In this document: piece after piece, positions 40,517-64,000 of the stretch | Position numbering within the stretch: the stretch's first letter is position 1 | How the letters are laid out: each line of letters starts with the position of its first letter | Assembly (NCBI RefSeq): GCF_013393385.1 | Contig: NZ_AP023239.1 | Location: 1,612,001 to 1,676,000, forward strand | Length of the DNA stretch: 64,000 nt | Origin: Paenibacillus sp. URB8-2 | Lineage (GTDB): Bacteria; Bacillota; Bacilli; Paenibacillales; Paenibacillaceae | Direction of reading: 5' to 3' | Program-made: the position numbers and the translations under genes | The notes under the pieces: model-generated | Databases searched by the model: none | What the model was told of the DNA's origin: nothing | Seen by the model: the letters and a program-made list of their open reading frames with translations, nothing else

Positions 40517-40528
40517 GGTGGTGAGAAT

Positions 40529-42542: not shown

Positions 42543-42555
42543 TCTATACTTCACC

Positions 42556-43650: not shown

Positions 43651-43654
43651 AAGA

Positions 43655-45851: not shown

Positions 45852-46032
45852 ATGGAAGCTAACAATGATTTAATGAAGCTCATTAAGTTAACGGGAGAGC
45901 GTGCAAAGCTGGACGCGAAGGCAAATGGAACGAACTTATGTTGTCTACAAAGACAAGACGGGCAAATTAGTGAAAGAACATTCTGATGGAATGAAAGAAA
46001 TTCTAGCGGAAGGTAACCCTGGATATGCCTGA
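45852..46032 (+). pseudogene. Frameshifted antitoxin gene of a zeta-like toxin
   Basis: The ATG at 45852 opens MEANNDLMKLIKLTGERAKL, DAKANGT, but the frame then runs into NLCCLQRQDG and stops by 45986. Dropping one base near 45931-45935 restores TYVVYKDKTGKLVKEHSDG, MKEILAEGNPGYA, ending at a TGA that overlaps the start of the zeta-like toxin by eight bases. The small helix-plus-strand shape and the overlap are those of an antitoxin. It may be a genuine mutation or a sequencing error. Confidence 0.65.
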
Positions 46033-46719: not shown

Positions 46720-46835
46720 GTGTAAAAAACCATCCATACATAGAATCTGACGGAAGTAATTGGATCTTATAGAAAATTATAGTGTGGAAACCTAATGATG
46801 ATTGAGGAAACATTACTATAGTGAGGAGAACAACC

Positions 46836-47786
46836 ATGCCTGAGAAAATTATACGTATCTTTAATATCATTAATGCGATCCAAGCGAATCCTGGTATATC
46901 CGCAACGGATCTAGCCTTTAAGTGTGATGTAGATGTAAGGACGATTTACCGTGATCTAAGGCTGCTGGATACTTTTGCTCCCATAACTAATACAGGCAAA
47001 GGAACTGGCTACCGGTTTATGGGCAAGTTCTTTATGTATCCACTTAATTTTTCAGAACAAGAAGCACTGGTATTCTCTCTTCTACCCTCAATGGTGGATG
47101 AAGACAAACTCCCTCCCGGATTCCATACAGCATACGATAAAGTGATGTCCACACACCACAAAGAAAAATCCAAGCAAAACAGTATCATTGAGGACATCAC
47201 TAATATTATTCAGATGGGTACACCAGCTTACCGTAAAGAAAGCCCCAATTTTCTGCAACCGATTATTCAGGCTATTCTAGAGCAAAAAACGATTGAGACT
47301 GTTTATCATACCCAGTATCGGAATGAAACTACGGAGCGCAAAATTGATCCTTATTACCTAGTCCCACGTGATCAACGATTCTATTTAATCGGATTCTGCC
47401 ATACCAAGCAGGACATTCGGACGTTTCGAATCAGCCGTTTTCTGAAAGTGGATCCTACGACTCAAACGTTCGACAAGAGTGAATTTAATATCAAAAAGTA
47501 TCTCAAGAACACGTGGTCGATTGAACAGGGCGAAAAAAACATTACTTTTAAAGTACGGTTTAATGCTGAGGTTGCCAGGTACATTAAGGAGGAAGAATTG
47601 TTCGTTCATCCACGAATGAAGGATCTTAAAGACGGCAGTATGATTTTTGAGGTGACCGTAAATAACGAAAATGAGTTTATAAGGTGGATTCTGCAGTATG
47701 GACCTGCCGCTGAAATATTAGAGCCTGCTTCTGTACGTGAAACCTTAAAAGGCCAGTTGGCGCAATGGACAGAGATGTATAAATAA
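46836..47786 (+). CDS. WYL-domain transcriptional regulator
   Basis: 316 residues from the ATG at 46836 (AGGAGA upstream). The N-terminus is a DeoR-like winged helix (IFNIINAIQANPGISATDLAFKCDVDVRTIYRDLRLLDTF). The C-terminal WYL-type domain shows KTIETVYHTQYRNETTERKIDPYYLVPRDQRFYLIGFCHTKQDIRTFRISRF. WYL regulators commonly control defence genes and respond to DNA or nucleotide ligands. It lies 51 bases upstream of the nuclease/helicase pair, same strand, and probably controls it. Confidence 0.9.
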   Translation: MPEKIIRIFNIINAIQANPGISATDLAFKCDVDVRTIYRDLRLLDTFAPITNTGKGTGYRFMGKFFMYPLNFSEQEALVFSLLPSMVDEDKLPPGFHTAYDKVMSTHHKEKSKQNSIIEDITNIIQMGTPAYRKESPNFLQPIIQAILEQKTIETVYHTQYRNETTERKIDPYYLVPRDQRFYLIGFCHTKQDIRTFRISRFLKVDPTTQTFDKSEFNIKKYLKNTWSIEQGEKNITFKVRFNAEVARYIKEEELFVHPRMKDLKDGSMIFEVTVNNENEFIRWILQYGPAAEILEPASVRETLKGQLAQWTEMYK

Positions 47787-47837
47787 GATAAGCAGGAACT
47801 GATCATAATAACTCGAAATATACAAGGTAGGAAGGAT

Positions 47838-50756
47838 GTGGGTCTCTTGAACTATAATTGGTTTGCGGATTTGTATGAAATATGCAATAACGATCCATTT
47901 TGTAGAAAGATCCTCCTTGTGGATCATTATGATCAGGGTGAACAATGGCTGACCCGGATAACAAAGGAACACGGACCTCTTCTAGGTGTGGTAACAGAAA
48001 CGTTAAGGTCTCTCGTTGTGAAGCGGACAAAACCGGAACTGGTAAAACGAGGGCTTCGTCTTTTAAATAGTAAACAGACGTTCTGGGTTGTCCAGAATCT
48101 TATGGTTGATATGGCAGAGCGTCAAGATAAGTACATACCAGCCGAGATGATTACCCCTGGTATCGTTCAAAGCTTTCACCATGCGATTGAGGAACTCCGA
48201 GGGGCGGGTATTTGCGCTTCAGAGCTTTCTATTTCTGTTTTTGAACATGTGCAAAAAGGTCTCTACATCACTGAGCTGCTCACTTTATATGAGGACTGGT
48301 TAGAACAGAATCACTTTACTGATTTTGCAGGTCTGCTTGATTACATACCGGAAGCTAATAAAGCAGCAAATAACCATCTCTTCATCCATAGAGACATGGA
48401 GAAGTTCTCTTTTGTGGAGAAAGAAATGCTAAGGCGCATCGCCGGAGATAGACTTCTCATTCTTCCGCAAGATGGTTCTTTCCCATCATCCCCACAGAAC
48501 GGAGATCATTTTGATGTTCGGTTGTACCATGCCACAGGAACTTTAGCTGAGGTTCGTGAAGCATTCCGACGTATCTGCAATCAGGATCATTCCTTCGATC
48601 AAGTAGAGATCGTTGTTTGTAATTATGAGGCTTATAGTGAAGCGATATATACGCTCAGCCAAGCTCTCGATATTCCTTGTACATTTTCAAAAGGTCTACC
48701 CGTCACTTATACAAAGGTTGGAAAGGCTTCGCTGGCTTATCTCGAATGGCTGGAATGCAACTACGATGTAGAGTGCTTACTTAAGGCTCTCCGACACGAT
48801 TATATGTCATTTCATCATTTTGGAGACTCCGTAGATAAGGCTAATCTCATACTTGCTTTGGAGCAAAGCGGAATTGGATGGGGAAGACAACGTTATTCCA
48901 TGTTAGAGGCTGCAGGTAATGCTGAGTTAAGGGGAAGACACACTGAAGCGATCAGGTTGTTAGACCGGGCTTTTAAAGGACTGTTTCAAAAACTGCCTGA
49001 TTCGGGTCAAGTGACGTGGACTCCTTTGGTGATCTTGCACGCATTGATAGATTTTCTTGAAAAGTACACCGTTCCATCCAGTGATGCTGACTCACTTGTT
49101 GTCGCTGAACTGATCGATCAAATGAAGCTGCTGGAGGTTGTTTCTCCTCGTGCGCTGTCCAGCGAGAGCGCGCTGCGTTATGTGAAAGACATGGTAGAGG
49201 GTATTCGTATCTTTGGTGGCGGACCAGCTAGCGGAAAGCTACATATATCTTCTCTTCAAGATGGCGGCGTATCGGGAAGAAATCAGACGTACATCTTGGG
49301 CATGAGTAATGAGGCTTGGTCATTACAGCTCCGGCAGGATCCTGTATTACTGGATATGGAACGCAGGAGTTTGGAGGGGTTACTCCTATCTACTGAGCGG
49401 ACAGAGCATATTATTCGTGAACGCGAGACCCGATTAGGGTTGCTTTCAGGACGAGTGACGCTAAGCTATTCCAGTTATGATCCGGCAGAACAGAAAGAAA
49501 TCATTCCGGCTTTTGTGTTATTACAGGCTGCTAGAATCGTAACGGGCGATTCCCAGATGGATCTGACAGGACTAGGACAGGTACTCGGTAAACCGGTTGG
49601 CTATATGTCGAGTGACCCGATAAAAGAGCATCTGTTGGATGGGACGGATCGTTGGCTAGGACGGTTCTACACTGAGGGGAAACTGCAAGATGGACTTTCC
49701 ACACTACGCCAATCCTTTCCATTCACCGCTAATTTGGATCAAGCAGAAATGCGAATTAGCGAGGGAACCCTATCAGAATATGAGGGAATGCTCTCGACGG
49801 ATACATTTACGGTTAGTTATCTAAACAATCCTGAGACGTATCTTAGTGTGACGCAGCTCGAACGATATGCGGAATGTCCCAAGAGGTTTTTCTTTTCTCA
49901 AGTACTGAAACTTAGGGCAAAGGAGACTGCTGATTTCGATCGGTCCCGGTGGCTGGATGCGGCTAGCAAAGGCAGCTTGCTTCACAGTATCTTTTACCAC
50001 TATCTGAAAGAGATGTCTGCAGGTTCAATAAATGAGGATAGGCTTAAACATGATGAATACAGACTTCAGGAAATCACAGAGCAGGTCATCCGTGAGTATG
50101 AAGCGATGGTGCCGCCGCCAACTCCACATATCTTTCATAAAGAATGTGATTCGGTGCGGCGTGATGTCGCCATTTTTTATCAAATGGAGCGGAAATCCGA
50201 GGGACGGCCACGTTTTTTTGAGCTCGAATTGACCCTAGACGGACAACCCATGAGTGTTAGACTGGACAATGGTATTGTGATCAGAATGAAGGGATTTGTG
50301 GACAGGGTAGATGAGATCAGACCACACAAGTACAAAATTTATGATTACAAGACTGGCAGCCCGGCGAAGTATGACGAGAACGAGTATTTCTCACAGGGTA
50401 CGCAGCTGCAGCATGCGTTGTATGCTGTTGCGGTTGAACAGTGGCTTAAGGATAGCGGTATTGATACGGAGGCACGTGTTGTAGAGTCGGCCTATTATTT
50501 TCCAACGGAACGAGGCAAGGGAAACGAGGTATCCCGGGTTCAAAATAAGACTGCGGAGCTTTCGGAGCTGGTGGAACATCTATTAGCATCAATGGAGTCA
50601 GGAACGTTTGCTGCAACGACAGAGTCGAAACGATGCTCCTATTGCGATTACGGGGCGGTATGCAGGAATGAATCAGAACGTACAAAGGAAAAATGGGACT
50701 TAGCCCTAAATACTCCACTGCTTCACCATATCAAGGAGGTAGAGCGTTTTGGTTGA
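47838..50756 (+). CDS. AddB-like PD-(D/E)XK nuclease protein
   Basis: 972 residues from a GTG with AGGAAGG upstream. The first 600 residues resemble an inactivated helicase-like AddB core. The C-terminal nuclease domain has LSVTQLERYAECPKRFFFS, GSLLHSIFYHYL, RMKGFVDRVDEI and KIYDYKTGSP (the catalytic D...DxK), with the later CSYCDYGAVC supplying the cysteines of an AddB-type iron-sulphur staple. The gene is shorter than chromosomal AddB proteins and overlaps the helicase gene by eight bases. It probably forms a heterodimer with it. Confidence 0.82.
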   Translation: MGLLNYNWFADLYEICNNDPFCRKILLVDHYDQGEQWLTRITKEHGPLLGVVTETLRSLVVKRTKPELVKRGLRLLNSKQTFWVVQNLMVDMAERQDKYIPAEMITPGIVQSFHHAIEELRGAGICASELSISVFEHVQKGLYITELLTLYEDWLEQNHFTDFAGLLDYIPEANKAANNHLFIHRDMEKFSFVEKEMLRRIAGDRLLILPQDGSFPSSPQNGDHFDVRLYHATGTLAEVREAFRRICNQDHSFDQVEIVVCNYEAYSEAIYTLSQALDIPCTFSKGLPVTYTKVGKASLAYLEWLECNYDVECLLKALRHDYMSFHHFGDSVDKANLILALEQSGIGWGRQRYSMLEAAGNAELRGRHTEAIRLLDRAFKGLFQKLPDSGQVTWTPLVILHALIDFLEKYTVPSSDADSLVVAELIDQMKLLEVVSPRALSSESALRYVKDMVEGIRIFGGGPASGKLHISSLQDGGVSGRNQTYILGMSNEAWSLQLRQDPVLLDMERRSLEGLLLSTERTEHIIRERETRLGLLSGRVTLSYSSYDPAEQKEIIPAFVLLQAARIVTGDSQMDLTGLGQVLGKPVGYMSSDPIKEHLLDGTDRWLGRFYTEGKLQDGLSTLRQSFPFTANLDQAEMRISEGTLSEYEGMLSTDTFTVSYLNNPETYLSVTQLERYAECPKRFFFSQVLKLRAKETADFDRSRWLDAASKGSLLHSIFYHYLKEMSAGSINEDRLKHDEYRLQEITEQVIREYEAMVPPPTPHIFHKECDSVRRDVAIFYQMERKSEGRPRFFELELTLDGQPMSVRLDNGIVIRMKGFVDRVDEIRPHKYKIYDYKTGSPAKYDENEYFSQGTQLQHALYAVAVEQWLKDSGIDTEARVVESAYYFPTERGKGNEVSRVQNKTAELSELVEHLLASMESGTFAATTESKRCSYCDYGAVCRNESERTKEKWDLALNTPLLHHIKEVERFG

Positions 50757-53700
50757 TGATCAGACGGCCAGAGAGCGAATTCTAGAGGTACTAGACCGGA
50801 CATTGATGGTGGAAGCAGGGGCAGGATCAGGGAAGACGACATCACTCGTTGGCCGGATGATTGCATTGATTAAGTCAGGGAGCGCCGGGGCCGAGCAGAT
50901 TGCAGCCATTACTTTCACGCGGAAAGCAGCGGATGAACTGAAGAGCCGGTTCAGACTGGAGCTGGAGCGGCAGATCCGTAAGGCGATAGAGCCAGAGCAG
51001 GCACTGCTGCAGCAGGCTTTAAAGGAGATCGATCGGTGCTACATTGGCACGATTCATTCTTTTTGTGGCAGACTGCTTAGGGAGAGACCGATTGAGGCGA
51101 GACTGGATCCTATGTTCCGTGAAATTGAAGAAGATGAAGCGAACTTGCTGCGGGATCAATGCTGGGATGAGTATCTAGTGAGTTTGATCGAGAACGGTCA
51201 GGAAAATATTATGGCGGGCCTTGCGTCCCTGCAAGTGAATGTGGAGGATCTGCATCAGGTGTACAAACGGGTATGTGACTACACAGACGTACATATTGAG
51301 ACGGTTGACTCTCCAAGACCTAACTTTGACCTTATTCGATGTTCTCTGCCCAAGATGATAGAAGAAGCAGGTCGTTATATTCCAACACAGAAACCAGAGC
51401 AAGGCTGGGATACGCTGCAGACACTGGTTCGTGATGGCAAGAGAATGTTGGATTTACATGGGCTTGATGATGATATGCGAATGCTGCAGCTCGCACTGAT
51501 GTTCGATCGGAAAATCGATGCTACCTTGAAGAGGTGGACAGATACTGCTATGGCCAAGGAATATAAAGGTATGTTCCAGGAGTGGCAAAGCCGTGTCTTG
51601 TTTCCCTTTCTTTGTGCTTGGCGGGAGCATCTATATCCGCAGTTGATTGATTTTGTCAGACCAGCTGTTGATTATGGCTCACACAAGCGAAACGAACTAG
51701 GCGTTCTAGACTTTCAGGATCTACTGATGCGGGCAACAGCGTTACTCCGTGAGCATGAGCATGTACGGCGTTTTTTTGCTGCTCGTTATACACGTCTGTT
51801 CATAGATGAATTTCAGGACACGGATCCCATTCAGGCAGAGCTCATGTTTCTGCTGACAGGTGATGACCCAGGAGAAGCGAATTGGAGACGGATTACACCT
51901 AAACCGGGATCCTTATTTATTGTTGGAGATCCTAAACAGTCGATCTATCGGTTTCGCCGCGCGGATATTTCTACCTATAATTGGGTCAAGAACAAGATCA
52001 GTACCTGTGGTGAGGTCCTTCAGCTAAGTGCTAATTTTCGGTCTATTCACCATCTTGGTCAATTCACTAATGATGAATTTAATACCCGGTTTCCAGAGAC
52101 TGAGTCTGAACATCAGGCGGCTTTTGTACATATGGATACACGAACAGCTAATCCGGAGAATGGTATACAGCATGGAGTCTACACGATGACTCATGCGAAA
52201 ATGGCTGGAGGTCAGGCAGCGATTGCCGAAGCAGATGCAGATCGGGCCGCTCGTTATATTGCATGGGCTTGCAGTGGTCAATTGAAGATTCAGGAGAAGC
52301 AGCCGGGAAGTGACGGTGGTTTCCTTGTAAGGGACGCATCACCGAGTGATTTCCTGGTACTCCTGAAACGAAAAGATTTCTTACACATCTACGCTGCAAA
52401 GCTGGATCAATACGGAGTTCCCTCTGTTACGGCTGGGAGTTCGGCGATATACGAAGAAATAGATGCGCTTGCTGTGCTTGCAAGTTGTCTTAACGACCCC
52501 GGAGATCTGGTATCCCTGTTAGCTGTGCTGAAGGGTATGTTATTTTGTGTTAGTGATAATGCACTCTTCCATTATAAGATGGAGGGGTTCCCGATTAACT
52601 ATACTACTTTACCGAATCAGGCAGAGGTCGGGGAAATAGCTTATCCAGTATATGAAGCGCTGGTACGACTCGCTGAATACACGGCTATGATTAGGAGGTT
52701 GCCGGCAATATCGGCACTGTTATATATAATAGAGGATCTAGGGATGATTCCTCTCGCAGCAGTTCGTCAGACCGGCCGGGCGCGTGCCGGAACATTGATC
52801 AAGCTGCTGCATCTGCTGCACAAGGACAGCCTAGTTGCAGCAAATTGGCCGGAACTGAGCTTGTATCTAATGCGGGTCGTAAAAGAAGCGAAGCTAGAGT
52901 GCGGAGATCTGTTCGCAGGTGAGCAGGATGCTGTTCGCATCATGAACCTTCATAAGGCCAAAGGGCTTGAGGCACCAGTGGTACTTTTAGCTTGTCCCTG
53001 CGGGGAGTCTGACCACGATGCCACAGAGCATGTGGACCGGATGGGGGATTCCTCTCGCGGATACTTCAGTATCACGCGGCGAAGAGGATATCAAGAGGAT
53101 GTGATCGCCCATCCACCAGGGTGGGAGGGACTCGCCGAACGAGAGCGATTGTACATGAATGCTGAAAAGGAGCGGCTGCTGTATGTCGCCGCTACTCGCG
53201 CAAAGCAGCTTATGATCATTAGCCGATATCCGGACCGTCCAGCCATCGATCCCTGGAGCAGCTTCGATACTGGGATTCAGGAAGATAGAGAGCTGGATGA
53301 TCTTGAGGTTATGACTGAGGTGCCTTCACGTTACGAAGGGGTACATGATGAAACGGCAGATGAAAATAATGGCCGTCAGTGGCGAAGCCGGCTGGCACAG
53401 CCGACGTACCAGACAGCATCGGTAACGAAACTAGTCAAGACCAGAGCTGTCCAGCCCCCTAGGCCGCTTGCGGGAAGAGGTATGGCATTCGGCAGCGTGG
53501 TTCATCGCTGCATTGAGCTGCTTGGGAGTGGCGCTGAATCCGAGCAGATGGAGCTGCACATCAGGATGATTGCCGAAGAAGAGGGTATGAATGAAGCATT
53601 GATCCCGGACGTGCATGCGATGCTGGAGGAAGTGGTGAATCATCCGCTGTGGCGACGTGCGCTGGTGGCGAAGCGGTGGATTCATGAGCTTCCGCTACGT

Positions 53701-53997
53701 ACGGTGAGGACGGATCTAGAACTGGATCTGGAGAGCGAAGCTTCGACAGCAGGTTCAACAGCAAAGGCCCTGTATTTGAAAGGCGTTATTGACTTCCTCT
53801 TTGAAGAGGAGGACGGCTGGGTGATTATTGATTTTAAAACGGATGTGTATGAAGAAAGGCAGCAGGCAGCATTTGTGGAATTTTATCGGCCGCAGGTGGG
53901 GGCTTATCGGGAAGAGTTGGAGAGGGCGTTTGGGATGACGGTGAAAGAGATGGGGCTTTATTTTTTGCATGGGGGTGAGTATGTTGTTCTAGAGTAG
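50749..53997 (+). CDS. AddA-like UvrD-family helicase with PD-(D/E)XK nuclease
   Basis: 1082 residues from a TTG with AAGGAGG nine bases upstream. Helicase motifs: LMVEAGAGSGKTTS (Walker A), AITFTRKAADEL, RLFIDEFQDTDPIQAEL (Walker B), FIVGDPKQSIYRFRRADI, NLHKAKGLEAPVVLL, LLYVAATRAK. The nuclease domain at the end includes GMAFGSVVHRCIELL and LKGVIDFLFEEEDGWVIIDFKTD. It would unwind and cut DNA ends together with the AddB-like partner. Because a host AddAB is normally encoded elsewhere, this pair is probably accessory. Confidence 0.88.
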   Translation: MVDDQTARERILEVLDRTLMVEAGAGSGKTTSLVGRMIALIKSGSAGAEQIAAITFTRKAADELKSRFRLELERQIRKAIEPEQALLQQALKEIDRCYIGTIHSFCGRLLRERPIEARLDPMFREIEEDEANLLRDQCWDEYLVSLIENGQENIMAGLASLQVNVEDLHQVYKRVCDYTDVHIETVDSPRPNFDLIRCSLPKMIEEAGRYIPTQKPEQGWDTLQTLVRDGKRMLDLHGLDDDMRMLQLALMFDRKIDATLKRWTDTAMAKEYKGMFQEWQSRVLFPFLCAWREHLYPQLIDFVRPAVDYGSHKRNELGVLDFQDLLMRATALLREHEHVRRFFAARYTRLFIDEFQDTDPIQAELMFLLTGDDPGEANWRRITPKPGSLFIVGDPKQSIYRFRRADISTYNWVKNKISTCGEVLQLSANFRSIHHLGQFTNDEFNTRFPETESEHQAAFVHMDTRTANPENGIQHGVYTMTHAKMAGGQAAIAEADADRAARYIAWACSGQLKIQEKQPGSDGGFLVRDASPSDFLVLLKRKDFLHIYAAKLDQYGVPSVTAGSSAIYEEIDALAVLASCLNDPGDLVSLLAVLKGMLFCVSDNALFHYKMEGFPINYTTLPNQAEVGEIAYPVYEALVRLAEYTAMIRRLPAISALLYIIEDLGMIPLAAVRQTGRARAGTLIKLLHLLHKDSLVAANWPELSLYLMRVVKEAKLECGDLFAGEQDAVRIMNLHKAKGLEAPVVLLACPCGESDHDATEHVDRMGDSSRGYFSITRRRGYQEDVIAHPPGWEGLAERERLYMNAEKERLLYVAATRAKQLMIISRYPDRPAIDPWSSFDTGIQEDRELDDLEVMTEVPSRYEGVHDETADENNGRQWRSRLAQPTYQTASVTKLVKTRAVQPPRPLAGRGMAFGSVVHRCIELLGSGAESEQMELHIRMIAEEEGMNEALIPDVHAMLEEVVNHPLWRRALVAKRWIHELPLRTVRTDLELDLESEASTAGSTAKALYLKGVIDFLFEEEDGWVIIDFKTDVYEERQQAAFVEFYRPQVGAYREELERAFGMTVKEMGLYFLHGGEYVVLE

Positions 53998-54030
53998 TGC
54001 TACGGTTCATTCTTAGTTAACTAAATATGT

Positions 54031-54762
54031 ATGCAGCAAAATCTGGAACCGAGAGAAGTGTCCATCAATATGAGTGAACATAAAGGGTATCCCCAACTTG
54101 AAAATGGTCGAGGTAGTCTCCGGGCAATTCAAGTCTGGGTGAATGATCATGGGACAGAGTCAGTTGATTTGGTGACTACGCAGCTATCCTTAAGAGGGAA
54201 ACTAAAGTGGGTATCACCAATACGCAGTAATTCAATGGCGGAATACAGAGATGTGGGGTTTCTAGAAAGAGTTGGTGTTTCAGATAAACTCACTGTGCCT
54301 CTGGGCACCTTTTGGCCTTCTAGGGGACCACAGTGGGATGGTCTTGGCGTAACGGAAGCCGAAGAAGTTATTCTGGTGGAGGCAAAGGCTAACTTAAAGG
54401 AGCTGAAGTCCCCAGGGACCAAAGCGGGAGAACAATCTTTGGCGTTAATTAGGCAAACCCTAGACGAGGTGAAAGATGGTTTAGGGATAGGTGTACAGTT
54501 TGATTGGACAAAAACCTACTATCAGTATGCAAATCGAGTAGCACATTTGTATTATCTTCGTGAGTTAAACGGGATTAAGGCTTTCCTGATTAATGTATAT
54601 TTTATAGGAGATCAGAGTGTAAAAGGACCATCTTCGGTTGCAGAATGGCAGATTGCTATTAGACGAATGAAGAAGATGCTCGGGCTGGATTATCCAAATA
54701 TTTTGCAACCTTACATGTATGATTTGTTTATAGATGTTCAGACCATGAAGGGCATAACATGA
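54031..54762 (+). CDS. Putative PD-(D/E)XK nuclease-like protein
   Basis: 243 residues (or 230 from the ATG at 54070). The centre reads PQWDGLGVTEAEEVILVEAKANLKEL: an Asp followed by ExK at the end of a hydrophobic strand is the core pattern of PD-(D/E)XK nucleases. The rest has no recognised domain. It lies 33 bases after the helicase gene and probably belongs to the same unit. The assignment is from one motif only. Confidence 0.5.
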   Translation: MQQNLEPREVSINMSEHKGYPQLENGRGSLRAIQVWVNDHGTESVDLVTTQLSLRGKLKWVSPIRSNSMAEYRDVGFLERVGVSDKLTVPLGTFWPSRGPQWDGLGVTEAEEVILVEAKANLKELKSPGTKAGEQSLALIRQTLDEVKDGLGIGVQFDWTKTYYQYANRVAHLYYLRELNGIKAFLINVYFIGDQSVKGPSSVAEWQIAIRRMKKMLGLDYPNILQPYMYDLFIDVQTMKGIT

Positions 54763-54817
54763 CTGGATAAGTATATAGCTTGTTTGTAACAATGAGAATG
54801 GGATGGGGGAGACAGAA

Positions 54818-55342
54818 ATGTCAACAGTTCAATTATCTGAAGAAATGCTCAAATCTCATGGTTGGGCCTATTTGTTTGATTTATCACATTTGAAAGACTC
54901 CCAAGAAGATACAATAAATGAGCAAATCAGAAACATTTATTTTTCTGCGGTTAACGAATTATCCAAACAAAGATCCAAAAAAATAAAGAAAGGGCCCTTT
55001 GTTGTTTGGAACTGTATGAAGTGGCTCATTGGAGATAACAATCAACCAACTGATGGTTATGTACTATTCGTAACTCCTTTCTATCATAAAATTACTGGTA
55101 GAGATGTTGATCCTATTGTTGAGGAAATGTGGAAACATAAAGGCTATATTAGGGCTTCCTCAGCGATACCTATATTAGAAGGAGCTATTCCAGCTTGTTT
55201 GTATGAAGAGGGTGAGGTTACTCCTGTAGAGATGGATAAGAGGCTCTTATCCAAACTATCGGATATATTCGAAGAACATCAATACATGTTAAGCCAAATA
55301 AATCCCGGAATGGAGCTTCGGGCGAATCCGTACGAAAATTAA
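54818..55342 (+). CDS. Protein of unknown function in the defence operon
   Basis: 174 residues from the ATG at 54818 (GGGGGAGA upstream). The sequence (MLKSHGWAYLFDLSHLKDSQEDTINEQIRN... and KGYIRASSAIPILEGAIPACLYEEGEVTPVEM) shows no domain I recognise. It is in the same orientation and spacing as the preceding genes, so it may be part of the system or its boundary. Confidence 0.55.
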   Translation: MSTVQLSEEMLKSHGWAYLFDLSHLKDSQEDTINEQIRNIYFSAVNELSKQRSKKIKKGPFVVWNCMKWLIGDNNQPTDGYVLFVTPFYHKITGRDVDPIVEEMWKHKGYIRASSAIPILEGAIPACLYEEGEVTPVEMDKRLLSKLSDIFEEHQYMLSQINPGMELRANPYEN

Positions 55343-56255
55343 TGGACTATAGTCTTAATAATGAAATATCCCCACTTGTAGATATGAATTACATATAGTA
55401 ACTCCAATTTGTAATTCACCTCTTCGTAATACAGAGCCTGTCTTAGAAGCTTATGGAGTTGAAGTTTTTGTGGAGTTGAAATGAAATGTAATTTAGAATG
55501 ATTCAAGAATTATTTTCATAAGCAGTATTACCAAATAGCTCACGGAAAGGTTATATTATAATTTGCGTCGAATTAAGGATATAAATAAGATACTATAGCA
55601 ACACCTAGTAATTTTAATCTAACTTTAATGAGCCATTTCTTATAGTGAGATCTTAGATTATAAAGTTTATAAGTATTAAAAATAAAGGCTAATTTATAGA
55701 GGGTGAGATTTTGTTGAAATAACAACGAGAATAACAAACATTCACTCGTTTTGAGATAGATTTAACTCAAAGTGGAGCACATTTTGCTAGCACTTTAATA
55801 ATAGATGAACTATGAGAGCTTTTGGCTTATGCAGGTGATGTCTCCGCTTCAAAAGATATTGAATCTTTTAATTATATATGGATTAGACTCGACTTTACTG
55901 TTATTTAGAGCGCAGATATTTATGGCGTAGAGATGAACAGGCACGGTCCTTACTGGGCGCTTTTGAATTTTAGAGTAAGGGGCCACCTGTTTTTTCGAGT
56001 GATTACGGATAGCTATTAAAGTCGAAGATTTATCATTACAATCAACTTGGAATTCTCCAAATAGGGTTCTGTCTTTACGGATGACCAGATGGGGCTGTAA
56101 TAATTGACCATGGAGATGAGCAGAAAAGGGACCGCCATTGAGCGGTTGCGAGAAAAATCTAGCAAACATAAGAGTAACGCTATGCAATACCACGCCAAAA
56201 CGATAATAATCCCGGCGTCCATGCTAGGTTAAAGAGAAAAGGAAGGAACTTATAA
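55343..56255. other. Long gene-free stretch between the two defence cassettes
   Basis: About 900 bases of low-GC DNA. On the minus strand overlapping frames (55849-56193 and 56016-56222) look partly protein-like: one has a hydrophobic N-terminus (MDAGIIIVLAWYCIALLLCLL), but neither has a ribosome binding site, and I cannot decide between them. They may be remnants of a membrane protein gene. The promoter of the downstream cassette should be in the last 100 bases. Confidence 0.4.
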
Positions 56256-59200
56256 ATGAGAACAATCAAATCAGCATGCCAATTACAACCCAAGGCCCTT
56301 GAAATAAATGTTGGTGATCAGATCGAGCAACTGGATCAGATCATTCATGACACAAATGGGCAGGATTATTTCAAGAAAACATTCATAACAGACGGAATGA
56401 AAATTCTTCTATCCAAAGGTATGGCACGTCTTGCTGGAAAGTCAAACGATACTGTGTTCCATCTTAAACAAGCCATGGGTGGTGGTAAGACACACTTGAT
56501 GGTTGGATTTGGACTACTTGCAAAGGATTCGGCGCTTCGGGAGACAAAAATAGGCTCGATTCCATATCAGTCCGATTTTGATGCGGCAAAGATCGCCGCT
56601 TTTAATGGACGTAACAATCCTCATACATATTTCTGGGGAGAAATTGCCCGTCAGTTAGGTAAAGAGGGTCTTTTCAGGGAATATTGGGAATCCGGTGCAA
56701 AGGCTCCTGATGAGCAGTCATGGATAAAACTGTTCGAAGGTGAAGAGCCTATTCTTATACTTTTGGATGAAATGCCGCCATATTTCCATTATTACAGCAC
56801 TCAAGTATTGGGGCATGGAACGATCGCAGACGTGATTACCAGAGCATTTTCTAACATGCTGACAGCAGCTCAGAAAAAGAAAAATGTTTGTATTGTCGTA
56901 TCTGACCTGGAGGCCGCCTATGATACTGGCGGAAAGTTGATCCAACGTGCTCTTGATGATGCTACACAGGAGTTGGGACGTGCGGAGGTTTCGATTACTC
57001 CGGTTAACTTAGAATCTAATGAAATCTATCAAATTCTTCGCAAACGGCTCTTTCTCTCGTTGCCGGAAGAAAGCGAGATAGCAGAGATTGCCTCCGTTTA
57101 TGCGTCAAGGTTGGCAGAAGCAGCAAAGGCCAAAACAGTTGAAAGAAGTGCTGAAGCATTAGCCAACGATATTGAGTCAACCTACCCATTTCATCCAAGC
57201 TTCAAGAGTATTGTTGCCCTGTTTAAGGAAAATGAAAAGTTTAAACAAACGCGTGGTTTGATGGAGTTGGTTTCACGTCTTTTAAAATCGGTTTGGGAAA
57301 GCAGCTATGACGTGTATCTGATTGGTGCTCAGCATTTTGATCTTTCCATTCATGATGTCCGCGAGAAGCTTGCTGATATCTCAGAAATGCGTGATGTGAT
57401 TGCAAGAGACCTCTGGGATTCCACAGACAGCGCTCATGCGCAAATCATCGACATTAACAGCGGTAATCATTATGCAAAACAGGTTGGAACTTTGTTGCTA
57501 ACAGCAAGTCTTTCAACCGCTGTCAATTCTGTAAAGGGTCTTACTCAAAGTGAGATGCTTGAATGCTTAATTGATCCCAATCATCAAGGAAGTGGGTTCC
57601 TAACCGTATTCAATGAGCTTCAAAAGTCAGCATGGTATTTACACCAGACCCAGGAAGGCCGTAACTATTTCAGTCACCAGGAGAACTTAACAAAAAAGCT
57701 GCAAGGCTATGCAGATAAAGCTCCGCAGAACAAGGTGGATGAATTGATCCGCCATCGTCTTGAAGAAATGTATAAGCCAGAAACTAGAGAAGCTTATGAA
57801 AAAGTATTGCCTTTGCCTGAAATGGACGAAGCAGCTGCTGTTCTAAAGACAGGACGGGCACTCTTGATTATTAGTCCTGATGGAAAGACCCCTCCAGGTA
57901 TTGTTGCAAACTTTTTCAACGATTTGGTTAACAAAAATAACGTGTTAGTTTTGACTGGGGATAAGTCATCTATTGCCAGTATTGATAAGGCAGCTCGCCA
58001 TGTCTATGCAGTAACAAAAGCGGATAAGGAAATTCCTGATTCACATCCGCAGCGAAAAGAACTAGATGAGAAGAAAGCTCAATATGAACAGGATTTCCAA
58101 ACCACTGTTCTTTCTGTGTTCGATAAACTTATCTTCCCAGGAAATAATCGGGGGGAAGACGTACTTCGACCTAAAGTTCTTGATAGTACGTATCCATCCA
58201 ACGAACCCTACAATGGGGAACGGCAGGTTGTAAAAACGCTGACTTCCGACCCCATTAAGTTATATACCCAGATCAGCGAAAACTTTGATGCCCTTCGTGC
58301 CAGAGCCGAGTCTTTGCTTTTCGGTTCTCAGGATGAGGCACGTAAGACTGACTTACTCGACAGAATGAAGCAGAAGACTCAAATGCCGTGGCTTCCAAGT
58401 CGTGGGTTTGACCAGTTAGCTATTGAAGCTTGCCAGCGCGGTGTATGGGAAGACCTAGGCAATGGCTATATTACGAAAAAGCCGAAACCCAAAATGACAG
58501 AGGTCATTATTAGTGAAGATACTTCACCGGATGACTCCGGTACGGTGCGTTTGAAGGTCGATGTGGTGAATGCAGGCAATAGTCCTCGAATCCATTTTGC
58601 TGAGGATAGCGAAGTTTCCGAAAGTAGTCCCGTACTAAGTGACAACTCACTCGCAACCAAAGCACTGCGCGTACAGTTTCTAGCCGTCGACCCCACTGGG
58701 AAGAACCTAACTGGTGCTCCTACAACATGGAAGAATCGCTTGACACTGCGCAATCGGTTTAATGAAGCTTCTCGAACAGTAGAGCTGTTTGTTGCACCAA
58801 GAGGTTTAATTAAGTACACCCTAGATGGGTCAGAAGCTCGAAACGGAACGGAATATTCAGGGCCCATCCAATTGGGAAATGAAGAAACGACAGTTTATGT
58901 CTTTGCAGAGTGTGAAAGCCTTGAGGAAAAGCGTACCTTTACCTTTTACAAATCCGGCTCCAAGGAAGTTCCCATTATGAAAGAGGCTCCTGCGATTTGG
59001 TCTAGCCCATCACCAAAACGCTTGGATAGTTCCTCAAAAACATATGAGGGATTGAAGATGGCCAAGGAGAAAAGCATTGAATTTGAACAGGTGACACTAA
59101 TGGTGGGTTCTGCACCTAAGGTCATCCATTTATCCCTTGGTGAAATGAAGATCAGTGCAGGGTTTATTGAAAAGGAGCTGGCACATCTTCAAACCCTCCT

Positions 59201-59324
59201 TAGCCCTGACGCACCTGTTATTATGACATTTAAAAAAGCCTACACGCCAACTGGTTACGATTTAGAGCAATTTGCCAAGCAGCTAGGTATTGAGATAGGC
59301 AACGGAGAGGTAGAACAAAAATGA
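56256..59324 (+). CDS. DUF499-domain AAA ATPase (anti-phage associated)
   Basis: 1022 residues. The N-terminal ATPase has a Walker A AMGGGKTHLMVGFGLL (about 70-85) and a Walker B PILILLDEMPPYFHYY (about 165-180). It continues with large helical regions. At about 850-905 there is a beta-sandwich resembling chitobiase C-terminal domains (IKYTLDGSEARNGTEYSGPIQL). DUF499 proteins are large ATPases linked with DNA-modifying defence loci. AAGGAAGG precedes the ATG. The stop overlaps the start of the DUF3780 gene by four bases. Confidence 0.88.
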   Translation: MRTIKSACQLQPKALEINVGDQIEQLDQIIHDTNGQDYFKKTFITDGMKILLSKGMARLAGKSNDTVFHLKQAMGGGKTHLMVGFGLLAKDSALRETKIGSIPYQSDFDAAKIAAFNGRNNPHTYFWGEIARQLGKEGLFREYWESGAKAPDEQSWIKLFEGEEPILILLDEMPPYFHYYSTQVLGHGTIADVITRAFSNMLTAAQKKKNVCIVVSDLEAAYDTGGKLIQRALDDATQELGRAEVSITPVNLESNEIYQILRKRLFLSLPEESEIAEIASVYASRLAEAAKAKTVERSAEALANDIESTYPFHPSFKSIVALFKENEKFKQTRGLMELVSRLLKSVWESSYDVYLIGAQHFDLSIHDVREKLADISEMRDVIARDLWDSTDSAHAQIIDINSGNHYAKQVGTLLLTASLSTAVNSVKGLTQSEMLECLIDPNHQGSGFLTVFNELQKSAWYLHQTQEGRNYFSHQENLTKKLQGYADKAPQNKVDELIRHRLEEMYKPETREAYEKVLPLPEMDEAAAVLKTGRALLIISPDGKTPPGIVANFFNDLVNKNNVLVLTGDKSSIASIDKAARHVYAVTKADKEIPDSHPQRKELDEKKAQYEQDFQTTVLSVFDKLIFPGNNRGEDVLRPKVLDSTYPSNEPYNGERQVVKTLTSDPIKLYTQISENFDALRARAESLLFGSQDEARKTDLLDRMKQKTQMPWLPSRGFDQLAIEACQRGVWEDLGNGYITKKPKPKMTEVIISEDTSPDDSGTVRLKVDVVNAGNSPRIHFAEDSEVSESSPVLSDNSLATKALRVQFLAVDPTGKNLTGAPTTWKNRLTLRNRFNEASRTVELFVAPRGLIKYTLDGSEARNGTEYSGPIQLGNEETTVYVFAECESLEEKRTFTFYKSGSKEVPIMKEAPAIWSSPSPKRLDSSSKTYEGLKMAKEKSIEFEQVTLMVGSAPKVIHLSLGEMKISAGFIEKELAHLQTLLSPDAPVIMTFKKAYTPTGYDLEQFAKQLGIEIGNGEVEQK

Positions 59325-59908
59325 GCGGCACTACTGATTTTGGAGCACCAACAGAATTTGGAATGCACCATTTCTATGTGGACATTCCCGCGGCTCCACG
59401 TGATGCTATCTGTATTTATGAGGACTTTGGCTTCGATGGCGATGAAGCTCGCCGCGAAACAGTTGAATGCAGACTGATTCTTGCTCGAGAACTCTGGAAC
59501 AAAATTCGGGATGAAGCCAGGCGAGACTTTAATGCACGCTTAAAGAACAAAAAGCAAAGTACTGGAAATTGGACAATCGGGAAAGTTAAGCTGGACCGCT
59601 TTCTGGGAAGGGAGTTGTGCGTCCTTGGCTGGGCGGCGGAGCATGCCTCGCCTGATGAGTGCCTTGTCATATGCCAAAAGTGGCTAGCATTGCGTCCCGA
59701 GGAACGCTGGTGGCTTTACAGCAAAACTGCCTCAGAGGCAGGGCATGAAAATCAATCAGGGCACGGCTGGCGCAAAGCACTCTACTGCGCATTGTCTGAC
59801 GGTTCGAATATTAAGCTTGAACCCAAAAAGAAGCCAAAGAAAAAACAGAAACCAGAAGAACAGGAGCCCCTGACTCTTTTTGATTTCATAGAAAAGGGAG
59901 ATATCTAA
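59321..59908 (+). CDS. DUF3780-domain protein (anti-phage associated)
   Basis: 195 residues. The sequence (TEFGMHHFYVDIPAAPRDAICIYEDFGFDGDEARRETVECRLILARELWNKI, LALRPEERWWLYSKT, GWRKALYCALSDG) matches what I know as DUF3780, which occurs only beside DUF499 and DUF1156 genes. The C-terminus is strongly basic (KPKKKQKP), as expected for nucleic-acid contact. Its biochemical role is unknown. Its start overlaps the ATPase gene by four bases and its stop shares one base with the methyltransferase start. Confidence 0.82.
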   Translation: MSGTTDFGAPTEFGMHHFYVDIPAAPRDAICIYEDFGFDGDEARRETVECRLILARELWNKIRDEARRDFNARLKNKKQSTGNWTIGKVKLDRFLGRELCVLGWAAEHASPDECLVICQKWLALRPEERWWLYSKTASEAGHENQSGHGWRKALYCALSDGSNIKLEPKKKPKKKQKPEEQEPLTLFDFIEKGDI

Positions 59909-62745
59909 TGGCACTAGCACCATTTGAATGGAAAGACAGACCGTCACTGATTGAACATCTGTTTCCAGTTCAGAAAATATCTGCTGAAAGTTTTAAGGAA
60001 CAGGAAGCTCGTCAAAGTAAAACACTAACTCCGCTCGGCAGTTATTGGAAGGGCAGAAAACCTCTTGTACTGAATAAAGCGTGTATTTTGGGGTCACTAC
60101 TTCCTGCCACAGAAGATCGTCTTAAAGATCTAGAAATCTTTGAACTATTGATGGGGATGGATTCTAGATCCATGCAAAAACGTATTGTAGCAGCTCTGCC
60201 AACTTCAAAACAAAGTACTGTCGGTGAATATTTAGTTTTACCGTACAATGAACAGGTGAAGAACGCAAAAAGACCTGAAGAGATAGGGGATTCACTTTTC
60301 ACCCATGTTTGGACAAAAGTGAACAACTACCTTGGCACTTCGGCTACCTCCTTTCCAGAATTAATAGAACAAATCGGGATAGCACGCTTTGGGCGACGCC
60401 CGAGAGTTGCAGATGTTTTTAGTGGTAGTGGTCAAATCCCTTTTGAAGCTGCCCGTCTTGGTTGTGATGTTTATGCTTCGGATTTAAACCCTTTAGCATG
60501 TATGTTGACTTGGGGGGCTCTGAACATTGTTGGAGGACGATCTATAGATACAAATCGTGACTTTCGTCAAGAGCAGTTAACAGTATTGGAAAAAGTCCGT
60601 TGTGATTTGGATGCGTTAGGTGTTGAGAATGACGGAAACGGGTGGTATGCCAAAGCATTTTTATACTGTGTAGAGGTCAAGTGTCCTGAAACAGGTTGGC
60701 TAGTCCCTCTTTTACCTAACCTCGTAAGTTTAGGGCATTCTGTTATTGCTCGATTAATACCCGACCCAACTAATAAGCGGTATGATATTGCCATTGAGTA
60801 TGTTGATGAATTGGATTCAGAATATATAAGCACAGGAAGTATTCGTTCAGATGGTCCAAGGCAAGATTCATATGTATATCACATTGTGGATGGTAAAGAG
60901 TACCGAATCAAAATTCCAACAATTCGAGGAGATAATAGAGACGGCACAAATAATTTAAGGCTTTGGGAGAAAAATGACATTATTCCTAGAGAAGATGATG
61001 TTTTCGGGGAACGACTGTATGCTATTCTATGGACTAACTCGAAAAATAACTCTCGAAGCGCTAGGCAGGAATTTCGTTCGGTCACTGGTGAAGATTTGGT
61101 AAGAGAGCAAAAGGTTGTTAATTATGTTGCCGAACATCTGAAAGAGTGGCAAGAAAAGGGCTACATCCCCGATATGGTAATTGAAAAGGGATATAATACT
61201 GATCAGCCAATTCGTGAGAGAGGCTGGACCCATTGGCACCATTTGTTTAATCCAAGACAGCTGTTGGTTAATGGATTAATCAACAAACATACTTCAGCTA
61301 ATTTCAAATTTGCTTTTACACAAGTCTTAAATAATAATTCGAGACTTAGTCGATGGAATTCCAGAAGTGGTGTAGGTCAAACCGCAAGTGTATTTGACAA
61401 TCAGGCCTTAAACACCCTCTATAATTACGGTTGCCGTGGTTTCTCCTTTTTAGATAGCCTTTTATCGCCAGCATATAAGTCTTACAGGGTTCCAGATGAA
61501 ATAAGTATAAGCATCAACTCTCAGCCTGCCCAGAATATTGATAGTGTTAATGATCTCTATATCACTGATCCGCCCTATGGAGATGCGGTGAAATATGAAG
61601 AAATCACCGAATTCTTTATCGCATGGCTTCGTAAGAATCCTCCTCAGGAGTTTGCCCACTGGACTTGGGATAGTCGACGTTCAATCGCAATCAAAGGCGA
61701 GGACGAAAGTTTCCGCCAAGGGATGGTGGCAGCATATAGGAAAATGGCTCAATACATGCCGGATAATGGAATTCAAATTTTAATGTTTACCCACCAAAGC
61801 GGTACTATTTGGGCTGATATGGCGAATATTGTATGGGCGAGTGGTCTGCAGGTAACCGCCGCTTGGTATGTGGTCACAGAAACGGATTCAACCTTACGTG
61901 ATGGTGCCTATGTAACTGGCACAATCATGCTTGTCCTACGAAAGCGAAAAGAAAATCTCGAAACATTTCGGGACGACCTCGGTTGGGAAATAGAGGATGC
62001 CGTTAGAGAACAAGTTGAATCCCTTGTTGGATTAGATAGATCTATTAGAGCTCAAGGATCAGAAGGACTCTACAATGATGCTGACTTACAGATGGCTGGA
62101 TATGCAGCCGCTTTGAAAGTTCTAACAGCTTACTCCCTTATTGACGGTAAGGACATGGTCACCGAGGCAGAAGCGCCTCGTCAAAAAGGTAAAAAGACCT
62201 TTGTGGATGAATTGATCGAATTTGCAGTTCAGACAGCCGTCCAATTCCTTGTCCCGTTGGGCTTTGAAAAAGGGGAATGGCAGAAGCTGCAAGCCGTAGA
62301 GCGGTTTTATCTTAAGATGGTGGAAATGGAGCATCAGGGTGCCAATACTCTGGATAATTACCAGAACTTTGCCAAGGCCTTTAAAGTCCATCACTTTGAT
62401 CAGTTGATGAGTGACGGATCCAAAGCCAATTCCGCACGTTTGAAACTCTCGGCTCAGTTCAAAGGCGCGATGATGTCTGAAGACACTGAATTTGGGAAGA
62501 CGCCATTGCGGGCTTTACTTTACGCTCTCTATGAACTCTACAAAGAGGTGGAAGTAGAAGACGTGCTCTTGCACCTGATGGACAATTGTCCTAATTATTT
62601 ACCCAACAAGACCTTACTCTCCAAAATGGCAGATTATTTGGCGGAAAAACGTGAAGGTCTGAAAGGCACAAAAACCTTCAAACCCGATGTTGAGGCGAGC
62701 TGTGCACGCATACTTTCGGAGGCAATAAGAAACCAGAGGTTATAA
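59908..62745 (+). CDS. DUF1156-domain adenine-type DNA methyltransferase (anti-phage associated)
   Basis: 945 residues. The SAM site reads VADVFSGSGQIPFEAARLGCDVYASDLNPLACML (about 169-200). The catalytic loop is TDPPYGDAVKYEEITEFFIAW (about 552-572), the DPPY motif of amino-methyltransferases. The start is typical of DUF1156 (SLIEHLFPVQKISAESFKEQEARQ...). It would modify host DNA to mark it as self, or regulate the system. It is co-transcribed with the upstream ATPase and DUF3780 genes. Confidence 0.9.
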   Translation: MALAPFEWKDRPSLIEHLFPVQKISAESFKEQEARQSKTLTPLGSYWKGRKPLVLNKACILGSLLPATEDRLKDLEIFELLMGMDSRSMQKRIVAALPTSKQSTVGEYLVLPYNEQVKNAKRPEEIGDSLFTHVWTKVNNYLGTSATSFPELIEQIGIARFGRRPRVADVFSGSGQIPFEAARLGCDVYASDLNPLACMLTWGALNIVGGRSIDTNRDFRQEQLTVLEKVRCDLDALGVENDGNGWYAKAFLYCVEVKCPETGWLVPLLPNLVSLGHSVIARLIPDPTNKRYDIAIEYVDELDSEYISTGSIRSDGPRQDSYVYHIVDGKEYRIKIPTIRGDNRDGTNNLRLWEKNDIIPREDDVFGERLYAILWTNSKNNSRSARQEFRSVTGEDLVREQKVVNYVAEHLKEWQEKGYIPDMVIEKGYNTDQPIRERGWTHWHHLFNPRQLLVNGLINKHTSANFKFAFTQVLNNNSRLSRWNSRSGVGQTASVFDNQALNTLYNYGCRGFSFLDSLLSPAYKSYRVPDEISISINSQPAQNIDSVNDLYITDPPYGDAVKYEEITEFFIAWLRKNPPQEFAHWTWDSRRSIAIKGEDESFRQGMVAAYRKMAQYMPDNGIQILMFTHQSGTIWADMANIVWASGLQVTAAWYVVTETDSTLRDGAYVTGTIMLVLRKRKENLETFRDDLGWEIEDAVREQVESLVGLDRSIRAQGSEGLYNDADLQMAGYAAALKVLTAYSLIDGKDMVTEAEAPRQKGKKTFVDELIEFAVQTAVQFLVPLGFEKGEWQKLQAVERFYLKMVEMEHQGANTLDNYQNFAKAFKVHHFDQLMSDGSKANSARLKLSAQFKGAMMSEDTEFGKTPLRALLYALYELYKEVEVEDVLLHLMDNCPNYLPNKTLLSKMADYLAEKREGLKGTKTFKPDVEASCARILSEAIRNQRL

Positions 62746-62748
62746 GAT

Positions 62749-64000
62749 ATGACGTTAAAGCGGTTTTCATCACGAACGGAACGGTTGGATACAGATTTTT
62801 TGGCCGAAACTCTTAGAGGCGCATCTAAGTACTTCCGAATTGCGGGCTATTTTAGGAGTTCAATCTTTGAGCTGGTTGGCGAGGAAATCTCTAAAATTCC
62901 TGAAGTAAAGATTATTTGTAATTCTGAACTGGACCTGGCTGATTTTCAGATGGCAACAAGGCGGAGTACGGCCCTTAAAGAGCATTGGAACGAAATAGAT
63001 GTTGAAGCGGAAGCGCTCCTAAAAAAGGAGCGCTATCAAATCCTAGATAAGCTATTGCAGTCTGGAAATGTGGAAATAAGGGTTGTGCCGCGAGAGCGCC
63101 TGTTCCTTCATGGAAAAGCAGGATCTATACATTATCCTGATGGTAGTCGCAAGTCTTTCATTGGTTCTGTTAATGAGTCGAAAAGTGCCTTTGCCCATAA
63201 CTATGAACTGGTATGGCAGGATGACGATGAGGAAAGCGCTGATTGGGTAGAGAGGGAGTTCGGGGCCTTGTGGAACGACGGTGTTCCTCTGCCGGAAGCC
63301 ATACTTGCAGAAATCAATCGTGTGGCTAATCGTCGGGAGGTCACGGTAGAAGTATTGAAGCCGTCTGAGGTCCCGGCTGCTGCAATGGCTGAAGCTCCGA
63401 TATATCGGGGCGGAGAACAATTGCAGCCCTGGCAGCGCTCCTTTGTAACCATGTTTTTGGAGCATCGAGAGACTTACGGTAAAGCCCGCTTACTTTTAGC
63501 TGACGAGGTCGGGGTTGGTAAAACGCTCTCCATGGCTACTAGTGCTCTGGTGAGTGCTCTTCTTGAAGATGGTCCCGTTCTCATTCTTGCTCCGTCCACG
63601 TTAACAATTCAATGGCAAATTGAGATGATGGATAAGCTGGGGGTTCCCGCGGCTGTCTGGTCTTCTCAAAAAAAGGTGTGGCTTGGTGCTGAAGGGCAAA
63701 TTTTATCTCCCCGCGGAGATGCATCTTCAATAAAAAAGTGTCCTTATAAAATTGCTATCATATCGACTGGATTAATCATGCACCAGCGGGAGAGGTCTGA
63801 GTTCGTCAAAGAAGCAGGAATGCTCCTTAAGAATCGATTCGGGACAGTCATTCTGGATGAAGCACACAAAGCACGGGCAAGAGGTGGGCTGGGCGATAAA
63901 GCAGCTGAACCGAATAATCTTCTTGCTTTCATGCATCAAATTGGAAAGCGTACTCGGCATTTGATTCTCGGTACTGCAACCCCTATCCAGACAGACGTGC
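62749..64000 (+). CDS. PLD-domain/SNF2-like helicase, partial
   Basis: The start ATG is three bases after the methyltransferase stop, with AGAGG upstream; the frame runs open to the window end (417 residues). Residues about 1-200 resemble a phospholipase-D-like domain (the H-x-K at FLHGKAGSIHY, then FIGSVNESKSAF). Residues from about 215 are a superfamily-2 helicase: LLADEVGVGKTLSMA, ILAPSTLTIQWQIEMM, ILDEAHKARARGG, LILGTATPIQT. Such helicases accompany DUF1156/DUF499 cassettes. Confidence 0.88.
   Translation, partial: MTLKRFSSRTERLDTDFLAETLRGASKYFRIAGYFRSSIFELVGEEISKIPEVKIICNSELDLADFQMATRRSTALKEHWNEIDVEAEALLKKERYQILDKLLQSGNVEIRVVPRERLFLHGKAGSIHYPDGSRKSFIGSVNESKSAFAHNYELVWQDDDEESADWVEREFGALWNDGVPLPEAILAEINRVANRREVTVEVLKPSEVPAAAMAEAPIYRGGEQLQPWQRSFVTMFLEHRETYGKARLLLADEVGVGKTLSMATSALVSALLEDGPVLILAPSTLTIQWQIEMMDKLGVPAAVWSSQKKVWLGAEGQILSPRGDASSIKKCPYKIAIISTGLIMHQRERSEFVKEAGMLLKNRFGTVILDEAHKARARGGLGDKAAEPNNLLAFMHQIGKRTRHLILGTATPIQTDV

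Follow-up and report, generated by a model that had tools for sequence, protein, structure and literature searches.

A WYL-AddAB-like operon as candidate left anchor of a modular anti-phage island in Paenibacillus

The stretch of DNA analysed here (the window, 64,000 nucleotides (nt), positions 1,612,001-1,676,000 of the single-contig 5.58-Mb genome of Paenibacillus sp. URB8-2) carries a WYL-type regulator gene followed by two genes, addB' and addA', that encode a divergent relative of the AddAB helicase-nuclease, and further on a four-gene defence cassette. On balance we favour a reading in which a modular anti-phage island has WYL-AddB'A' as its constant left anchor, which probably supplies DNA-end degradation to interchangeable restriction modules. 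Behind addA' lies a slot where one complete modification-linked restriction cassette can take the place of another. Here it holds a Type-2 BREX (bacteriophage exclusion)-related (BR) system together with a 1.86-kb insert carrying two small genes. Its right edge, too, is fixed where tested, by a divergent SbcDC pair (SbcDC') in this clade and, in two others, by paired MZB DEAD-box helicases. An earlier note, made from the letters of the DNA, had described the gene set and its tight packing, and both are confirmed by the open reading frame (ORF) positions and profile matches (Table 1): AddB'/AddA' overlap by 8 bases, DUF499/DUF3780 by 4 bases and DUF3780/DUF1156 by 1 base, and a 3-base gap separates DUF1156 from the helicase gene. 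The WYL gene stands as well, but with another start, the GTG at 46821; the 46836 given before is an in-frame ATG.

The left cassette was considered as the housekeeping addAB of the genome and rejected as such: a separate addB-addA-sbcD-sbcC set, with an AddB of 1167 amino acids (aa) and an AddA of 1393 aa, lies at 4.04 Mb, 2.4 Mb from the window cassette. The earlier note had reasoned that the pair would not be a defence module if it were the only AddAB of the genome and syntenic with housekeeping addAB; this is not what we find, because the housekeeping set lies at 4.04 Mb and because AddB' is patchy in the family. AddB' shares 20.7% identity over 450 residues with its own housekeeping AddB and scores 55 bits against NCBIfam TIGR02773 (equivalog cut-off 903.7), while AddA' scores 234.4 bits against TIGR02785 (cut-off 707.65). 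AddB' is predicted to have the AddB fold: in a Foldseek search with its AlphaFold model (predicted local distance difference test score 85.6), the best PDB matches were five AddB chains, with E values from 1.3e-31 (3u4q_B) to 2.7e-28, and the best PDB sequence match of AddA' was AddA (3u44_A). Among the aligned rows that cover each site, the AddB' nuclease residues are kept in 43/43, the four Fe-S-type cysteines in 44/44, 43/44, 43/43 and 43/43, and in AddA' (46 rows) Walker A is kept in 44/44, the DE of motif II in 45/45 and the nuclease D and DxK in 46/46. Since these catalytic residues are conserved, both nucleases and one helicase of AddB'A' appear to be under selection, although a reading frame is broken in four loci. 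The Walker A pattern G....GK[ST] was found in none of 29 aligned AddB' rows (window copy included); the housekeeping AddB of the genome has it at its N-terminus. A Chi-site reading of AddB' was tried, for which the N-terminal alignment proved too weak.

The distribution of the pair was followed in 394 genomes of the family with an AddB' profile; at most two candidates were scored per genome, so that the AddB' counts are lower bounds. AddB'-type matches score 138 bits or more and are separated by a clean gap from the next ones, of the housekeeping kind, which begin at 63.9 bits. They occur in at least 45 genomes (38 with a full-length protein, 4 with a split one only and 3 with short fragments), and the full-length loci number at least 41, to which genome G002 adds a partial second one. 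With the fragments in G282, G247 and G313 left aside, full-length, split or partial AddB' is present in at least 42 of the 394 genomes, giving 46 loci (45 fetched and the window) on which alone our counts rest; a separate discovery set, the best 80 of 381 contig loci, shares species with the 394-genome set. Named AddB' relatives come mostly from Paenibacillus, with some from Cohnella, Brevibacillus and others; a more distant group, 27-30% identical, belongs to uncultured Bacillota and to other phyla. In each of the 46 loci AddB' is followed by AddA', which an insertion interrupts in one (L146). A WYL gene lies within the stretch read around AddB'A' (about 4 kb upstream and more downstream) in 37 of the 46 loci, window included: it is there in 33/33 loci with cargo versus 3/11 without.

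Behind addA', a modification-linked restriction-type system is the next recognised system downstream, on the same strand, in 33 of the 46 loci. Eight kinds of cargo were recognised by means of 50 marker proteins, some of them drawn from these very loci, supplemented by a few profile searches. The DUF499 cassette of the window is the cargo in four loci (the window, L105, L114 and L135). L111 carries SspFGH, labelled unknown in the tree below and identified later. The type I label in L102, L103, L106 and L112 is to be read with weak HsdM similarity (24-27%) in mind: Pfam adds HsdR domains in L103 and a specificity domain in L112, L102 and L106 were called by HsdM similarity alone, and L132 has HsdM only, its contig ending there. 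Seen from the cargo side, DUF3780 occurs in 5 of the 394 genomes; all four copies above cut-off sit 7-10 kb downstream of AddB' on the same strand, and the remaining copy, in G154, scores under the cut-off and lies on a different contig. Strong PglZ matches (>70 bits) lie about 12-16 kb downstream of AddB' in 9 of 30 cases, a very large excess over chance, as 46 stretches of 25 kb cover roughly 0.05% of about 2.4 Gb (at 6 Mb per genome, our own estimate). Many cargos begin about 25-210 nt from the addA' stop; a DUF6946 frame that seems to overlap addA' by 49 nt is a longest-ORF artefact, its better start lying behind AGGAGG, 26 nt past the stop. Judged by gene neighbourhood, WYL-AddB'A' and the DUF499 cassette are neither an obligate pair nor chance neighbours. 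To the alternative posed before, of a left cassette either independent or a partner, the loci give a third answer: a constant slot edge, of which the DUF499 cassette is one kind of cargo.

The cargo of the window is, on its profile matches, the known Type-2 BR system. The modification-plus-helicase system proposed for it on first reading is borne out, DUF499, DUF3780, DUF1156 and the PLD-helicase all scoring above NCBIfam 'anti-phage' equivalog cut-offs (4/4) and matching PADLOC profiles over their full length; it had already been named and published, the main text of PMC12839542 defining this four-protein set as the Type-2 BR system and placing it in 1120 taxa. PglZ, the BREX marker, has no match in G000, which argues against membership of BREX proper. 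Among the four family copies, overall identity is 90-97% for DUF499, DUF3780 and the helicase. The methyltransferase alone is hypervariable, as an exchange of specificity would lead one to expect: in two segments of DUF1156 identity falls to 24-65% in 50-residue blocks, while the intervening block, starting at residue 395, is 72-86% identical.

The left edge of the slot is sharp. Homology of the window to L103 and L106, which carry other cargo, ends at 53987 and 53984, and to G164 at 54025. Loci were paired where their addB'A' is at least 80% identical. Of 46 such pairs with different cargo, 44 cease to be homologous within the stretch from -45 to +1 nt around the addA' stop, the two exceptional pairs sharing further genes before the break, whereas in 11 of 13 pairs with the same cargo (one of them a pair of cargo-free loci) homology continues for more than 100 nt past the stop; the pairs are drawn from a few clades and are non-independent. 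The last codons of addA' can track cargo rather than lineage: the end of addA' in L116 is like that of the distant type I carriers L131 and L139 and unlike that of its near relatives L113, L115 and L117. Classic integration at an att site in the addA' end was rejected, no duplicated end being found in the window, the family loci or the joined G164 stretch; the last 70 nt of addA' gave only matches of 11-15 nt in their own locus, with E values of 0.009 or worse.

On the right, homology between the window and five relatives resumes about 120-140 nt before sbcD'; in a second clade (five genomes) and in four of six genomes of a third it resumes before two MZB DEAD-box helicases. Slot sizes range from 8.2 to 18.7 kb in 15 genomes. 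SbcDC' (L011:4113-8358) is a second, divergent SbcD-SbcC pair, its SbcD being 29% identical to the housekeeping SbcD. In the stretches read it is present in the window genome and five of six close relatives; the sixth, G173, lacks both cargo and sbcDC' and continues into a pPIWI_RE block. As a general partner of AddAB', SbcDC' was rejected, since it had no match beside AddAB' in the best 80 of 381 loci, with flanks of up to 10 kb; L014 and L015 are from species with SbcDC' just outside the flank searched. A second variable slot lies behind sbcC' (L011:8565-19590), with a 1673-aa MTES_1575 helicase, a McrB/McrC-like pair and two unassigned proteins of 541 and 161 aa, and its content varies among relatives.

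Cargo moves INDEPENDENTLY: on the AddB' tree, from which L125 and L146 were left out as too short, the labels type I restriction-modification (RM), BREX 1, type III-like and BR need 9, 7, 6 and 4 changes for 10, 7, 6 and 4 rows, about as many per cargo as shuffled labels. All labels taken together, empty loci included, need 23 changes, where shuffling gave a mean of 27.9 and in 0 of 200 shuffles a value this low. This points to some clustering, chiefly among the empty loci, which need 5 changes (shuffled mean 9.2). L132 (type I RM) and L133 (BREX 1) are 97.3% identical over 7.4 kb despite their different cargo. The BR cassettes of G205 and G327 have a DUF499 96% (95-96%) and a helicase 97% identical to those of the window, with an AddB' only 36-41% identical. 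In G205 the aligned block runs from 49 nt before DUF499 to the stop codon of the helicase gene; in G327 a relic of the helicase of another cargo (its first 50 residues) stands directly before the BR cassette.

How might anchor and cargo work together? The cassette would mark self DNA and attack or break unmarked phage DNA, and the AddAB-like helicase-nuclease, under control of the WYL protein, would degrade the broken or linear phage DNA. What we observe is the anatomy, the intact catalytic residues, the exchange edges and the cargo swaps; co-regulation, joint action and purpose are our inference. According to passages of PMC12707154, RecBCD degrades restricted phage DNA unless it is blocked by lambda Gam, and passages of a preprint (PMC12407980) reason that phages commonly carry antagonists of RecBCD-like enzymes. 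Because AddAB' is very unlike the housekeeping enzyme, it may escape the phage inhibitors of the latter. It is tempting to go further and to see in a dedicated AddAB-like helicase-nuclease a common DNA-shredding chassis behind whose addA' any modification-linked cassette could be plugged, the last addA' codons travelling along, with the WYL protein and the anchors making an acquired system work at once; we advance this general form tentatively, as a possibility on which we would not yet rely.

Several observations weigh against a functional coupling of AddAB' and cargo. No cargo was recognised in 11 of the 46 loci, which were only partly profiled (one protein, L134), and L108, which ends at a contig end, was not judged. 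As the other 21 of the 30 strong PglZ matches lie away from AddB', BREX can do without AddAB'. The BR cassette lies about 430-913 nt from the preceding gene (L105, L114 and the window) and, having its own upstream stretch, may have its own promoter; a promoter and terminator scan of 53900-56300 found no excess over shuffled sequence (5 against a mean of 8.1, and 1 against 1.2). The AddA' or AddB' frame is interrupted, by decay or sequencing error, in L116, L125, L143 and L146. AddA, AddB, RecB, UvrD, SbcC and McrC are not mentioned in the main text of PMC12839542, and for AddA, AddB and UvrD this silence counts against a partnership. Sharp edges, finally, are also found at the end of sbcC' and around the pPIWI_RE block, so that such an edge is not special to AddAB'. 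This argues for several such slots between conserved blocks, ours being one of them, and it weakens, without removing, the case for a special coupling to AddAB'.

The same edges could be those of a pure recombination hotspot between conserved blocks: homologous recombination in the flanks would exchange the cassettes, and AddAB' would have no functional tie to them, acting alone or merely marking the site. This would be in line with the BREX loci that lack AddB' and with the varied defence cargo of known hotspots (papers on the subject are PMC10250203 and PMC9122126), but we regard it as rather unlikely: methyltransferase-bearing markers are absent from slot 2 in six genomes, the window included (several slot-2 genes being unprofiled), where slot 1 holds BR, BREX 3 or type I RM, the WYL gene is retained in every locus with cargo, and many cargos begin within tens of bases of addA'. 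AddAB' (and SbcDC') might instead protect the host: they would mend chromosome breaks caused by a restriction system that has just arrived, and so let the slot accept new specificities. EcoKI does cut unmodified chromosomal sites, after which RecBCD degrades the chromosome unless recombination rescues it (passages of PMC12707154), the anchors are all end-processing or helicase proteins (AddAB-like, SbcDC-like, MZB helicases), and the specificity-like region of the methyltransferase varies fast. However, the genome already owns a complete addB-addA-sbcD-sbcC set and we see no sign here of recombination activity, RecA loading or Chi recognition, which makes such a role improbable. That the pair is an independent nuclease-helicase defence, Gabija-like or stand-alone, and a chance neighbour of restriction systems in defence islands seems to us very improbable: AddA' resembles GajB in its UvrD domain (PADLOC, 122.5 bits) and some AddB' loci have no cargo, but Pfam finds no OLD-type GajA partner among the operon proteins, the pair has the architecture of AddAB and not of Gabija, and its position relative to the cargo is fixed.

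Table 1. Genes and features of the island within the window.
Feature	Position in window	Strand	Evidence or remark
WYL/WCX transcription factor	46821-47786	+	GTG start; Pfam WYL 72 bits, WCX 66.1 bits; first anchor gene
AddB' (AddB-fold nuclease subunit without Walker A, predicted)	47838-50756	+	PDDEXK_1 (Pfam)
AddA' (UvrD-type helicase and PD-(D/E)XK nuclease)	50749-53997	+	UvrD-helicase 185.5 bits, PDDEXK_1 (Pfam)
Left edge of exchangeable slot, addA' end	53984-54025	.	homology breaks
243-aa protein	54031-54762	+	ExK-like motif (by eye)
179-aa protein, mobile small gene	54803-55342	+	no family
DUF499 AAA+ ATPase, Type-2 BR	56256-59324	+	NF042962 1484.2 bits (cut-off 1200); PDLC02192 1968.6 bits
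DUF3780 protein, Type-2 BR	59321-59908	+	NF042961 268.5 bits (cut-off 200)
DUF1156 methyltransferase, Type-2 BR	59908-62745	+	NF042963 1259.2 bits (cut-off 1000)
Hypervariable target-recognition-like part of the methyltransferase, two segments	60508-61528	+	residues ~201-394 and ~445-540
PLD(HKD)-SNF2 helicase, Type-2 BR	62749-64000, on to window-equivalent 65466	+	NF042964 1225.5 bits (cut-off 1100)

Neither of the small genes between addA' and the BR cassette matched a Pfam, NCBIfam or PADLOC family at E<=0.001. The 243-aa gene belongs to the 1.86-kb insertion that separates addA' from the BR cassette; the insertion is absent in G164, where BR-side homology directly follows addA'. The protein, common to G185, has 216 matches at E<=0.001, itself included, with no Pfam domain among the 120 matches listed; among these, many members are metagenomic and a few named ones come from other phyla. 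Relatives of the 179-aa protein are found upstream of the WYL gene (L039/L122), between the PLD helicase and McrB (L148) and in slot 2 of G215.

The island extends rightward beyond the window end. The full-length PLD/SNF2 helicase has 905 aa (L011:750-3467), with PLDc_2 at residues 19-175; to its right come the divergent sbcD-sbcC pair and the 1673-aa helicase, which has a MTES_1575 nuclease domain, and further on the 541-aa protein without family, McrB-like and DUF2357/PDDEXK_7 proteins, and the pPIWI_RE and GmrSD genes. At the left end of the island, a DarT (Pfam, 219.1 bits) and a DarG-type macro-domain gene (PADLOC DarG, 455 bits) at 39866-41563 form, by these matches, a predicted DarTG toxin-antitoxin pair. 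Three overlapping phage-integrase-family genes (41619-45178, minus strand) follow, which may mobilise the whole island; relatives of them adjoin AddB' islands of several other genomes, at the left or right end. A zeta-toxin-like P-loop protein is encoded directly before the WYL gene (46025-46603); its relatives, too, are encoded upstream of WYL in a number of Paenibacillus loci. Other genes recur beside WYL-AddB' in many loci: one for a VWA-like protein of about 415 aa (a label given by eye, with no PADLOC family; for example L072:7627-8913), Fic-like genes (PADLOC SoFic), and genes that we take to be HIRAN-like and YhaM-like.

If AddAB' works with each cargo, restriction systems as diverse as BREX, type I RM, SspFGH and Type-2 BR would have one degradation partner in common, acting downstream of them, and the question of how such systems finish off phage DNA would gain a concrete answer. 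The loci offer a natural experiment for this, in anchors about 97% identical with different cargo and in DUF499 proteins 95-96% identical behind AddB' proteins only about 40% alike. Even if the link is positional only, the slot is a precise place for finding new restriction systems in Paenibacillus and its kin, by reading what comes after addA'. In the literature searched (titles and abstract starts, most subscription journals lying outside the coverage) we found no account of a restriction slot anchored by an AddAB-like pair and no paper with AddA, AddB and BREX together as whole words; the terms asked are also absent from the main text of the DefensePredictor paper (PMC13092281). The parts are known, and the arrangement and exchange behaviour, of the defence-hotspot kind, are to our knowledge new.

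Like AddAB (PDB 3u44, 4cej), AddB'A' consists of two adjacent genes with one superfamily 1 helicase plus nuclease and one subunit of predicted AddB fold with a nuclease and four Fe-S-type cysteines; it differs in scoring far below the equivalog cut-offs, in the missing Walker A of AddB', in its patchy distribution and in the adjoining WYL gene. WYL-type helix-turn-helix proteins are associated with BREX and other defence systems (BrxR/CapW; passages of PMC9122601 and PMC12255303), but in the present loci the WYL gene and the exchangeable system are usually separated by an AddAB-like pair; PMC9122601 does not contain the terms AddAB, AddA or RecB, and PMC12255303 contains neither AddAB nor RecB. 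Compared with the Type-2 BR system of the PMC12839542 main text, the window cassette has the DUF499 ATPase, standalone DUF3780, DUF1156 methyltransferase and HKD/PLD-helicase, and even the chitobiase/Fn3-like domain near the DUF499 C-terminus; nothing in the cassette itself is different, and what is new is its position behind AddAB' in the family examined. With the core defence hotspots and the P2/P4 hotspots the slot shares variable defence cargo at a fixed place, but its flanks are accessory DNA-processing operons and its edge falls inside the last codons of addA'.

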